Source: Ianthella basta (lineage: Eukaryota; Porifera; Demospongiae; Verongiida; Ianthellidae). From it: a DNA stretch of 64,000 nucleotides. The position numbers and the translations under genes are program-made. Below are positions 4,176 through 63,749 of the stretch, piece by piece; positions within the stretch are counted from its first letter, which is position 1, and each line of letters opens with the position of its first letter. The notes under the pieces were generated by a model. It had not been told where the DNA came from. It ran no database searches and worked only from the letters and a program-made list of their open reading frames with translations. The DNA is taken from positions 1,285,001-1,349,000 of the forward strand of contig OZ025878.1 in NCBI GenBank assembly GCA_964019415.1. Reading direction: 5' to 3'.

Positions 4176-5021
4176 ATGGGCGACACGTTTTCCCGCAGTC
4201 CCCCTCGTCCCGACGAGCTCACAGTCGGCGATGAAATCAGTCGAGGAGCCTACGGGGTGGTGTACCGAGGTACTCTTGGTACGAGGCCCGTGGCCATCAA
4301 GAAGATACATCAGCTTCTGCTGGACTACGCGAAGGAGAGGGGAGAGGAAATGGAGGGATTGTGTCTGAAAGAGTTTCGTGACGAGTGCGAGCTCTTGGAG
4401 GCGGCCAAGCACGCAAACGTGGTGGAATTCATCGGCGTGTTTGACCAGGACGGCAGAGCTCTGTTAGTTATGGAGTTAATGCATCAGACGTTGGAGGAGT
4501 TCCTTGAGAAGAACCGAGGGACACTACCACTGACGAAACAGGGTAACATCTGCCTCCAAATTTCCCTGGGACTGGCCTTCCTCCATCAACACGACCCCCA
4601 AATACTCCACCGCGATTTGACAGCAGTTAATGTGCTGATGAACGAAGATGGCAGTGTTGTGAAGATCAGTGACCTTGGCCAGGCCAAGTTCCGTCCCTCC
4701 TCTGTCATGTACCTCACCACCAAGGCCCCGGGGTGCATCCCATACATGCCACCAGAGTGCTTGGAGGATCGGCCACACTTCACAGACAAAGGAGATGTGT
4801 TCTCCCTCGGTGTGGTGGCGTTGCAAGTCTCTACCCAGGAGCCCCCTTCGTGTGGTTTTCGAGGCATCGGTGTTCAGAAGGAGGTGGAGCGTCGATCAGC
4901 TGACCTGGCTAGACTACCAGCCGACCATCCCCTGAAGCCACTCATCCTTCAATGCTTGCAGGACGATCCTGCTAAACGGCCGAGTTGCAACAATGTTGTT
5001 CGTGTACTGCAGCCAGAAGCA
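4176..5021 (+). CDS. TKL-type protein kinase A, first exon of gene A
   Basis: The start is ATG at 4176, the first ATG after the MITE and aligned with kinase C. Visible motifs: glycine loop ISRGAYGVVYRG (21-32), VAIK lysine (K42), FRDEC in helix C, HRDLTAVN (145-152), DLG in place of DFG (166-168), MPPE (191-194) and DVFSLG (207-212). HRDLTA plus MPPE is typical of tyrosine-kinase-like kinases. The subdomain VIb lysine present in kinase C (HRDLTAKN) is Val here, and DLG replaces DFG, so activity may be reduced or altered. Reading past the donor at 5022 gives a 294-residue kinase-only protein ending LNIVQLYIH at 5060, with AATAAA at 5306-5311. Confidence 0.9.
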
Positions 5022-62000: not shown

Positions 62001-63749
62001 TATGCATTAGTTATGATCCGCCAGGATGGATGTGACTAATTTATAGTGAGGCATGAGGACACAAAGCACCCAAGTGTGGAGTGTTTATTAATTAGCCACA
62101 TCCCAAGTGGGGATGACACAGAGGAGGGTGGCCACCATGTATCATGTGACAGGCTGGGAAGTATGTGCATAGTATATTTATACGCATTTCACACTGTAAT
62201 GTTATGTACTGTAGTGTACCCTCTCTTTCTTGCTCAAGCTTACAGGTATCCACACATATCACAACTACCTGGCCACTATCATGTGATACGTGGCCAACCT
62301 CCTCTGGGGGTGATACAAGTGATATGTTTGATGCTAAGGGAAGTGTGGGTAAATGATAATAGGTTTCTTGCCAAATATGGAAAGCACTAGGTTAGTTGTG
62401 CAGTCGGCAAGGTGATTTATTAAGCATCCCAAGCTGGCTTTCTAAAGCGAAGGCACAAAGTGTGGGGCTTACACCATGTGCACACAATACACTCTGCACT
62501 GCATGACCAGTCCTGCAGTACAGAGTGTTCTATCTTAGCAAGATGGATCAATTACATAGTGTGTAAAATCATTCATTGTACTCTATCTTCACTCATTGTA
62601 GCTGCACGATTTTCAGTCACTAAATTTCTCAAGAAACATGAGGATGACTTTTTCAAGTATGTCAACCCAAGGCAGAGCCTGCTGAGGCTCAAACGTAAAG
62701 GTGTCATCACAGAAGATGTCAAGTCTAGCATTGATGGGTCCAATACCAAAGACGCACTGGAGTATTTATATGACCACTTGAAGTGCTATGGCAACCTGCA
62801 CACTCTGAGGGAATACTGTAAAATGGCCATAGATGCAGAAGGCTTTCCAAACATGCAGGCCCTGGGGAGGAAGATGATGAAGGAGTTACCAACAGAGGTG
62901 GGTATTGCATGTCTAGCGAGAGTGTCAGGTCCATAGGTAGGGGAGGCTCATTAGTCTTGTAACCAGACGCAACCCGTCCAGCAGCCATTTAATTGTGATG
63001 TCAGGCACAGCCAGGTCGTTAAACATATAAAATTAATGAAGGTGACAAAAGCTGCCCGGGTACAAGACTAGGAGTTCATTGCATTTGGTACAAACCTCCC
63101 TTATGTAGAGTTTAGTAGTAATCCAGGGTCAGCAGCATTGTAAAGCTTTGTATTTCAATGACCACTGTGGGTCTAGTGCAAGTGATGAGTTTGTGTTTTC
63201 AGGTTTGTGATTATGTGGGTAAAGTATGTCTCCTTATGTATGCGCATGTGTGTATATACGTATATCTATGCATGTGTGTGTGTGTCTGTGTGTGCGTGTG
63301 TGCATGTGTGTGTGTGTGTGTGTCTGTGTGTGCGTGTGTGCATGTGTGTGTGTGTGTGTGTGTGTGTGTGTGTGTGTGTGTGTATGTGTGTGTGTGTGTG
63401 TGTGTGTGTGTGGTTCTTACAGAATTGGGTTTGTATATAGAATGTGCTGTCTGCCTGATTATTAGCTACAGTGGAGCCTGTCTAATACAGCCACCTGTGG
63501 GCCAGTTATAATTTACCTTTATAGAAAGGTAGCTATTTTACAGAGGTAGGCTGCAATGTATTGGTGCAATGTTAGTGCTATTTCGGGCCAGAGGGGCTGG
63601 CTGTTTTAGAGAAGTGGCTGCCTTAAGTGACTCTCCTAGACAGGCTCCACTGTACGTCTTCACTTTGTACCACTATTCATGCTGTTTTACAGTTATCTGC
63701 AGTGTTTTTGCTCTTGTAGGAATGTGAGGGTGCTGGTTGTGACCCGTGA
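49168..63749 (+). CDS. gene C: TKL kinase / ZU5 / CARD fusion
   Basis: Exons 49168-50013, 50406-50442, 57051-57658, 57754-57906, 59161-59359, 61471-61575, 61788-61892, 62602-62897 and 63720-63749 total 2379 nt, 792 residues, with all phases consistent. Order: kinase (1-282), linker (283-294), ZU5 (about 322-431), UPA-like region (432-614), two Ser/Thr/Pro-rich linkers (APVLTQEFSD..., LSQPFSPTSPGIGLGE...), CARD type A (about 686-783), tail ECEGAGCDP. The ATG upstream of the ZU5 acceptor is closed by an in-frame TAG at the splice site, so the ZU5 exon cannot start independently here, unlike in gene B. This favours fusion to the kinase. There is no membrane helix, so it is probably cytosolic. 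Extra small exons in the long first introns cannot be excluded. Confidence 0.7.
50406..50442 (+). CDS. 37-nt second exon of gene C
   Basis: AIKDGALSSQYK plus one base, acceptor TATCGTAG, donor GTAAGA. Same role and phase as 5345-5381. Confidence 0.7.
50443..52566. other. intron of gene C, mostly unassigned
   Basis: AT-rich at first; near 50800-50890 there is a short duplicated motif (ATAACTGCAATAAGAA, ATAGCTGCAATAAGAA). 51400-51570 is GC-richer with GCCCTCGGGCGCTTCGCGCC, a hairpin typical of MITE ends. A possible Ser/Gln-repeat exon at 52170-52382 is listed separately. I recognise no other gene. Confidence 0.4.
52170..52382 (+). CDS. possible exon with ESAQ repeats, unknown
   Basis: After acceptor TTCACTCACAG, a 70-codon frame to TAA 52380-52382 shows repeated units ESAPEEEQEPARGESAQ, NQESTQ, NQESAQ, then VLFNLEGNTRRLTLQKVIHD. 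The repetitive acidic segment followed by a well-formed end looks like a real C-terminal exon, but no partner exons were found and the family is unknown. It could belong to an inserted gene. Confidence 0.3.
   Translation, partial: ESAPEEEQEPARGESAQRTNQESTQENNQESAQRGHHESVLFNLEGNTRRLTLQKVIHDGRGVSCVQLYS
52567..53390. mobile_element. hAT-like MITE with 5-bp target duplication
   Basis: Ends CAGGGCCGTCGGAGGC and (reverse complement of the right end) CAGGGCTGTCGGAGGC; direct repeat ATTGG at 52562-52566 and 53391-53395. A subterminal GGTACGGCC repeat is at the left. 824 bp, no transposase. Same hallmarks as 7349-7990. Confidence 0.85.
53396..55193. other. intron of gene C with TG tract and short open frames
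   Basis: 53470-53560 matches 41300-41390. 53969-54000 is (TG)n. 54100-54180 resembles 5715-5800 in gene A, so this part of the intron predates the split of A and C. The frame at 54252-54479 and the Ser/Thr/Gly-rich frame at 54911-55111 (VPTPTTSTTSAASGVTAQ) might be small exons; the evidence is weak. Confidence 0.4.
55194..55788. mobile_element. TGTGAG-TIR element (complete copy)
   Basis: Ends TGTGAGAGTCGCCAGTAGAA and, inverted, TGTGAGGGTTGCCAGTAGAA, TIR of about 35 bp, flanked by TA (55192-55193, 55789-55790). Minus and plus frames inside are short. TA duplication suggests a Tc1/mariner-like or related non-autonomous element. Confidence 0.8.
55838..56027. mobile_element. 190-bp hairpin MITE
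   Basis: Arms of about 60 bp: GATGTAGGGATGGCATAA... at the left and TTATGCCATCCCTACATC at the right, with GTTACACAGTGGAGCATTAA pairing inside. No coding sequence. Confidence 0.8.
56028..57050. other. intron before the ZU5 exon of gene C
   Basis: It includes a (GAA)n stretch at 56527-56560. 56697-56765 is directly repeated at 58915-58985 (CAGGAGTAGCGCGACTTTT). The block at 56930-57050 is the empty-site counterpart of the insertion in gene B (32992-33574). Confidence 0.5.
57051..57658 (+). CDS. ZU5-domain exon of gene C
   Basis: 608 nt, starting with two bases that complete a Met codon after exon 2. [20 protein letters not shown] and [16 protein letters not shown] mark the ZU5 fold; YHFCPLP is at residues 427-433. 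About 90% identical to the gene B exon. Confidence 0.85.
57754..57906 (+). CDS. exon 4 of gene C (post-ZU5)
   Basis: [20 protein letters not shown]... [15 protein letters not shown]; phase 0-0, donor GTGAGC. Counterpart of 34354-34506. Confidence 0.7.
57907..59160. other. intron of gene C
   Basis: 58060-58150 is the uninterrupted counterpart of the site that received the 34662-35908 element in gene B. An open frame at 58418-58654 (DPTKTCEVPTNASMRLPI...) is of unknown meaning. No other feature seen. Confidence 0.4.
59161..59359 (+). CDS. exon 5 of gene C (conserved post-ZU5 region)
   Basis: [50 protein letters not shown]; phase 0 to 1, donor GTAGGT. Counterpart of 37664-37862. Confidence 0.75.
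60266..60700. mobile_element. TGTGAG-TIR element (copy 3, right end lost)
   Basis: Left end TGTGAGGGTCACCAGTATAA after TA at 60264-60265. Internal ACATACGCAGGATACAAATA is shared with 55194-55788. Truncated near 60700. Confidence 0.65.
60701..61470. other. intron with repeated CGATAATTGG motifs
   Basis: GGCCGATAATTGGT occurs at about 61163 and 61197, with GGCCGATAGTTGG at 61370. These resemble the subterminal motifs of the CGTAC-TIR elements (25337, 34662), perhaps a diverged member. No gene seen. Confidence 0.4.
61471..61892 (+). CDS. two linker exons of gene C
   Basis: 61471-61575 and 61788-61892, both 105 nt and phase 1-1, encoding Ser/Thr/Pro-rich, presumably disordered segments (PSRSESSLSTQDSRTTSNSA; SPTSPGIGLGESRSLSTSNP). 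Equal length and phase suggest an exon duplication. Orphan copies lie at 31994-32350. Confidence 0.65.
62602..62897 (+). CDS. CARD (type A) exon of gene C
   Basis: Acceptor TCATTGTAG; FLKKHEDDFFKYVNPRQSLL, KGVITEDVKSSIDGS, EYLYDHLK, REYCKMAIDAEGF; ends ELPTE with donor GTGGGT. About 85% identical to the gene A exon. Confidence 0.7.
63266..63411. repeat. (TG)n microsatellite
   Basis: TG tract with CT/CA interruptions in the last intron of gene C. The related intron position downstream of gene A has a shorter tract (16346-16394). Confidence 0.95.
63720..63749 (+). CDS. terminal exon of gene C
   Basis: Acceptor TTGCTCTTGTAG, then ECEGAGCDP and TGA at 63747-63749. The surrounding 3' sequence is conserved near 16690-16950 downstream of gene A. 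Confidence 0.5.
   Translation, partial: ECEGAGCDP

Follow-up and report, generated by a model that had tools for sequence, protein, structure and literature searches.

The 64,000-nucleotide stretch of the Ianthella basta genome analysed here (C11:1285001-1349000, called the window in the following; the genome comprises 209 Mb in 96 contigs) holds two predicted genes, gene A and gene C, which carry a homologous protein kinase exon at the front, a homologous 37-nt linker exon and a homologous CARD exon towards the end, while the middle is a Roc-COR-like GTPase core in gene A and a ZU5-like core in gene C. A third gene, gene B, lies between them. We lean towards reading these genes as members of a tandemly duplicated animal family whose intracellular proteins carry a protein kinase at the N-terminus and a CARD at the C-terminus, with a core between them that varies. 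The chains of genes A and C consist of predicted exons read from genomic DNA, and the protein collection used for comparison consists of unspliced open frames, in which matches to the ROCO region span the core only. Positions without a contig prefix or unit name refer to the window; the features are collected in the table.

Features of genes A, B and C and of the neighbouring unit U3 (positions in the window)
Feature	Positions	Strand	Remark
Gene A exon 1, protein kinase (G-loop, VAIK, HRD, DLG motifs), 846 nt	4176..5021	+	
Gene A exon 2, 37-nt linker, phase 0 in / 1 out	5345..5381	+	kept in 5/5 copies
Gene A exon 3, Roc-COR core (GPPRVGKT, DCGGQ, THLD)	9021..11329	+	
Gene A exon 4, 73-nt linker, phase 0 in / 1 out	14303..14375	+	
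Gene A exon 5, CARD type A and stop (TAG)	15203..15498	+	
Gene C exon 1, protein kinase, DFG intact	49168..50013	+	
Gene C exon 2, 37-nt linker	50406..50442	+	
Gene C exon 3, ZU5-like core	57051..57658	+	
Gene C exon 4, UPA-region	57754..57906	+	without family match
Gene C exon 5, UPA-region	59161..59359	+	without family match
Gene C exon 6, Ser/Thr-rich spacer	61471..61575	+	
Gene C exon 7, Ser/Thr-rich spacer	61788..61892	+	
Gene C exon 8, CARD type A	62602..62897	+	
Gene C last exon	63720..63749	+	least certain; stop at 63747-63749
Gene B kinase exon, second kinase type	23204..24067	+	ends by eye
Gene B ZU5 exon	33646..34253	+	
Gene B UPA-region exon 1	34354..34506	+	
Gene B UPA-region exon 2	37664..37862	+	
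Gene B transmembrane-like exon, phase 1 to 1	42270..42476	+	ends by eye
Gene B small linker exon, phase 1 to 1	43080..43145	+	read by eye
Gene B CARD exon, type B	43603..43887	+	ends by eye
U3 CARD exon, type B	276..563	+	kinase, linker and ROCO of U3 lie left of the window

Gene A comprises five exons encoding 1186 amino acids and gene C nine exons encoding 792. All internal junctions are GT-AG, the phases fit and both chains are open, so that the initial annotation, which had proposed shared kinase, linker and CARD exons around differing middles in two phase-matched open chains, is borne out down to its splice junctions. Identity between the two genes is 90.8% in the kinase exon and 89.3% in the CARD exon. 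At the position of the TAG that closes the CARD exon of gene A, gene C and the upstream unit U2 have GAG followed by a donor site, and gene C would thus either continue into the short last exon or add roughly a dozen residues from the intron before it meets a stop. Exons were mapped over 264 kb, i.e., the window and 100 kb on each side, including 5,200 unread bases, 5,000 of which lie directly left of the window. In this span the linker exon is kept with its AG and GT sites in all five copies of the gene A/C kinase type, and the splice sites of the ROCO exon are likewise kept in five of five copies, one of them a ROCO exon that has no kinase nearby. Taken as sequence evidence, this conservation of the exon chain exceeds chance, and the gene structures as modelled for A and C are very probably correct.

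The same 264 kb contain seven units, all on the plus strand and in the same order. The first, U0 (C11:1212943), joins a third kinase type over a small linker exon and a transmembrane-like exon to a type B CARD, and neither ROCO nor ZU5 matches were found in it. U1 (1230469), U2 (1250619) and gene A consist of kinase, 37-nt linker, ROCO, 73-nt exon and type A CARD; U3 (1267439) is like U1 through the 73-nt exon and has its type B CARD inside the window, beyond the 5-kb unread stretch. Gene B joins the second kinase type to ZU5, UPA-region and transmembrane-like exons and a type B CARD, and a linker between its kinase and ZU5 exons was not located. The unit of gene C runs from kinase and linker over ZU5, UPA-region and spacers to a type A CARD, and an extra ROCO exon with no kinase match nearby lies at C11:1368637. 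Kinase first and CARD last thus holds as had been proposed, but the single kinase front and single CARD end of that proposal, which omitted gene B, give way to three kinase types and two CARD types. The transmembrane-like exon occurs also at C11:1220269 and in a cluster on C5; it lies within 4 kb upstream of a type B CARD in 16 of 26 cases and never downstream of one.

The identity of the domains was examined by Pfam scans, profile searches of the PDB, structure models and Foldseek. In the kinase exon Pfam PK_Tyr_Ser-Thr ranks above Pkinase, and the best 60 of 1142 PDB kinase matches by sequence are a mixture that includes a tyrosine kinase, CTR1, MAP3K5, BIK1, IRAK4 and Nek7 and does not include RIPK2. 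TKL, the label of the initial annotation, is a tentative class for these kinases. The core of gene A carries three GTPase motifs of Roc, directly followed by a COR domain. Pfam Roc scores 18.3 bits on the ROCO exon of gene A, below the cut-off of 27, and is found in 12 of 23 aligned relatives (best E 4.7e-7), some of which have a second GTPase in front that may explain part of these matches. A ROCO profile matches the Roc domain of LRRK2 at E 0.0015, with no stretch passing alone; the ROCO exon by itself has no match in the PDB, and the N-terminal part of the gene A structure model is too low in confidence to add support for Roc. Pfam recognizes ZU5 in 9 of 11 relatives (E 0.1 or better, 5.4e-5 at best), while the exon of gene C itself scores 14.4 bits, below the cut-off of 21, and a ZU5 profile gave no relevant PDB match and no ZU5 structure by sequence. 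No Pfam match to UPA was obtained in the two gene C exons or in the joined core. Pfam CARD misses the type A CARD exons of the window, and a profile of 28 CARD relatives gave a single unrelated PDB match (E 0.076). Compared with strong CARDs of the same genome, the type A profile reached a probability of 40.9 (E 0.00028) and the type B profile 14.4 (E 0.0019), an unrelated control 0.1 (E 0.79). The identity of the CARD is settled by the fold instead: the predicted structure has the six helices of a CARD, and its fold matches are CARDs apart from one Fas death domain at Foldseek rank 14. The identities of kinase, Roc-COR, ZU5 and CARD support the modular family with an exchanged core that the initial annotation had put forward.

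The likeness between genes A and C runs to 5394, 13 bp past the linker exon, and resumes 32 bp before the CARD exon, at 15171; no match in the interval reaches 100 bp. Genes A and U1 are 93.6% identical over 4172-5394, 97.6% over 5501-7348 and 99.2% over 7986-17537, their 73-nt and CARD exons being identical, and A and U3 are 96% alike in ROCO while their CARD types differ. From these segment-wise identities among A, C, U1 and U3 it follows that the copies are mosaics with breakpoints in introns, and, to judge from the DNA itself, the copies have probably exchanged their cores by breaks in the introns that flank the linker and CARD exons. This exchange would have come about through unequal crossing-over or gene conversion. 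A less likely history, although the strongest of the competing ones, does without exchange and derives both genes from an ancestral kinase-ROCO-ZU5-CARD gene, with ZU5 lost on the way to gene A and ROCO on the way to gene C. It would fit the ROCO, ZU5 and CARD exons that stand in this order at C1:9199806-9205963 and the ROCO followed by ZU5 at C5:313336, and gene B and U0 indicate that cores can also be cut down. However, neither a ZU5 remnant in gene A nor a ROCO remnant in gene C was found at E 1e-4, and A and U1, which are nearly identical from 7986 to 17537 but less so in their kinase segment, show that copies recombine.

The order of the modules was followed through the whole genome in lists of best-scoring candidates, which are lower bounds, comprising at least 138 kinase (the kinase of gene B not among them), 150 type A-like CARD, 147 ZU5, 58 ROCO (66 matches less 8 short second pieces), 25 type B CARD and 26 transmembrane-exon matches. 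A ROCO exon follows on the same strand within 16 kb of seven of the 138 kinases (U1, U2, U3, gene A, C11:1482168, C11:1602706 and C3:9895397), and a CARD then follows in all seven; a ZU5 exon follows within 16 kb of three (gene C, C3:12662722 and C3:12643538), with a CARD after it in the first two. ROCO is followed by CARD in 17 of 58 cases and ZU5 by CARD in 28 of 147, both above every one of 1000 rounds of shifted placements (maximum 6 and 8), while few cases show the opposite order (ZU5 then ROCO 0/147, CARD then ROCO 4/150, CARD then ZU5 4/150). ROCO-CARD and ZU5-CARD neighbours occur elsewhere in the genome without a listed kinase of the gene A/C kind. The pairing of core and CARD is therefore a broad theme of this genome, with the kinase front in a minority, and the family as first delimited was drawn too narrowly: the finding is real and mostly as described, and wider than described. 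The best independent case is C3:12643538, where a kinase 71% identical to that of gene A lies about 350 nt before a ZU5 exon, joined by a 52-nt linker that, read by eye, has the phase pattern of the 37-nt linker (0 in, 1 out); no CARD match was found directly downstream. Three long open frames were rejected as proof of fusion: C6:526463 (1545 amino acids), which has repeated kinase domains and a Kelch-like frame downstream, not ROCO; C1:12072122 (2436 amino acids), whose length is inflated by an unread stretch; and C2:1904548 (742 amino acids), where the 2.8 kb examined hold a 229-amino-acid frame with CARD only.

Several observations weigh against a family in which kinase, core and CARD belong to one intracellular protein. 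No core of either kind lies within 16 kb downstream of 128 of the 138 kinases, and the counts of kinase followed by ROCO (7 against a shift mean of 0.54 and maximum of 10) and by ZU5 (3 against 0.63 and 9) are not decisive alone, because clustered arrays shift as blocks. An AATAAA stands at +285 of intron 1 in four of five copies (about 5306 in gene A) and at +137 and +355 (about 50368) in gene C, the frame past the donor of intron 1 stops at codon 13 in all five, and the 2600 nt that follow the CARD exon of A and of U1 contain neither AATAAA nor ATTAAA. The transmembrane-like exon of gene B, between core and CARD, would put kinase and core on one side of a membrane and CARD on the other, and no signal peptide was seen. 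Constraint, measured as the ratio of non-synonymous to synonymous change (dN/dS), is weak or absent on the 73-nt exon (0.49-1.20) and the transmembrane exon (0.87). Moreover, we infer that each chain is one transcript, as we do the cause of the exchange and the function, from genomic sequence. The signals in intron 1 and the many kinases and core-CARD pairs that stand apart from each other are what would be expected of two neighbouring genes, a kinase-only gene whose transcripts are polyadenylated within intron 1 and, downstream of it, an independent core-CARD gene, or, in a milder form, of long and kinase-only isoforms side by side. We consider this improbable, since the 37-nt linker, conserved in all five copies, would serve no purpose other than to join the kinase to an acceptor of phase 1, though the neighbouring intron is equally alike in these young copies; the compact kinase-ZU5 arrangement at C3:12643538 also argues against it. 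A kinase-only isoform from intron 1 is possible.

None of the compared exons contains a stop (five kinase, five ROCO, four type A CARD, three type B CARD and two ZU5 exons). Values of dN/dS are 0.35-0.63 for the kinase, 0.18-0.33 for ROCO and 0.50 for ZU5; among the CARDs, type A pairs that are not identical give 0.24-0.60 and type B 0-0.40. The UPA-region exons show less constraint (0.64 and 0.69). Values near 0.5 may reflect relaxed constraint, because the families are large and recent. That the array is decaying, with most copies pseudogenes and the open chains its remnants, would agree with its tandem instability, its repeat insertions, among them a reverse-transcriptase remnant in intron 2 of gene A, and the ROCO exon at 1368637 that has no nearby kinase match, but is very improbable given the absence of stops from the compared kinase, ROCO, CARD and ZU5 exons and the low values for ROCO.

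The kinase-core-CARD architecture is a novel variation on known kinds and not a kind of its own. DAPK1, LRRK and NLRP1/CARD8, to which genes A and C had been likened at the outset, share parts with them; RIPK2 and the placozoan ROCO proteins with CARD have to be added. LRRK1 and LRRK2 have the Roc-COR fold and a kinase in common with gene A, but in the order LRR-Roc-COR-kinase (LRR, leucine-rich repeat) instead of kinase first, and to our knowledge no CARD is known in LRRK. DAPK1, whose kinase is of the CaMK type, a type not shown for gene A by the mixed PDB list, resembles gene A in having the kinase before Roc-COR and a death-fold domain at the C-terminus, and no LRR was found in gene A. It differs in its C-terminal death domain, where gene A has a CARD by fold, and in the ankyrin repeats between kinase and Roc, of which no match was found in the scanned kinase and ROCO exons of the window, intron 2 having been checked for open frames of at least 90 amino acids only. 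DAPK1 is described as the only Roco group with a kinase before RocCOR (PMC6337361). RIPK2 shares with genes A and C an N-terminal kinase and a C-terminal CARD, a layout of kinase first and CARD last (PMC9573974), but has no intervening core where a 769-amino-acid Roc-COR or a ZU5-like core stands here.

NLRP1 and CARD8, in which the FIIND (ZU5-UPA) precedes a CARD, resemble gene C in their ZU5-like domain followed by CARD, while the kinase in front is found in gene C only and its UPA-region is without Pfam match. The FIIND cleavage motif is HFS or SFS; in the 320-amino-acid core of gene C, where the site is not alignable, no [HS]F[ST] tripeptide was found, so that autoproteolysis of the FIIND type is not expected by motif and a non-cleaving latch is likelier than release. 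NLRP1 and CARD8 need such autoproteolysis after ZU5, at F1212 and S1213 in NLRP1 (PMC7483925). In Trichoplax, ROC-COR with CARD or death domains is reported in the accessible sections of two papers (PMC4104024; PMC11378527), which like gene A joins Roc-COR to CARD in an early animal, although a kinase-first order with CARD is not described in those sections. The RIP-like kinases of amphioxus combine ZU5 and kinase in one protein as gene C does, but in the order LRR-ZU5-kinase and with no CARD listed in the excerpt (PMC9573974). Within the open-access text that could be reached, no description of kinase-ROCO-CARD or kinase-ZU5-CARD was found.

Provided that transcription follows the predicted exon chains, what lies directly between kinase and CARD would be a Roc-COR GTPase or a ZU5-like domain. 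Regulation would then fall to the core, which in gene A would act as a GTP-dependent switch and dimeriser (Roc-COR) and in gene C as a latch (ZU5), controlling the exposure or clustering of kinase and CARD; as in RIPK2, CARD contacts may bring the protein into an assembly in which the clustered kinase signals. By this analogy, a RIPK2-like scaffold whose core controls clustering is a tentative proposal with a chance slightly short of even. The initial suggestion, in which the middle would detect or switch, the kinase signal and the CARD assemble, is likewise a tentative proposal. The paired genes, which differ only in the core, would offer a natural experiment on the control of a RIPK2-like kinase-CARD protein. 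Sponges have large NLR sets (PMC12909245). The present family would mean that death-fold signalling proteins also multiply and diversify outside this group, the intron breakpoints being a concrete and testable route to new architectures. More speculative and rather unlikely is a germline-diversified system resembling immune receptors, in which kinase and CARD ends stay constant and the core (Roc-COR, ZU5-like or transmembrane) is swapped among the tandem genes by recombination in the flanking introns, giving a cytosolic kinase-CARD repertoire outside the NLR family.

Some further observations concern the modules elsewhere. Repeated kinase domains of the gene A/C type lie in a single frame at C6:526001-531200, and large arrays of the same kinase type at C11:208972-279574 and 975336-1098613 have no ROCO, ZU5 or CARD match nearby. 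Three CARD matches share one 297-amino-acid frame at C3:1070653-1071420, with a ROCO exon (C3:1074351) about 3 kb downstream, i.e., CARD before ROCO, the reverse of the window. Intron 2 of gene A holds a reverse-transcriptase remnant on the minus strand at 7973-8500 (Pfam RVT_1, E 0.0042, below the cut-off). Finally, pieces of a C2CD5-like gene lie at 2575-2829, 19904-20158 and 47309-47563, each between a CARD exon and the next kinase, with more copies in the flanks; the first matches Pfam YbjQ_3, the fifth YbjQ-like domain of C2CD5, at E 2.3e-10, and the duplicated unit seems to hold two genes, the kinase-to-CARD gene and the C2CD5-like one.

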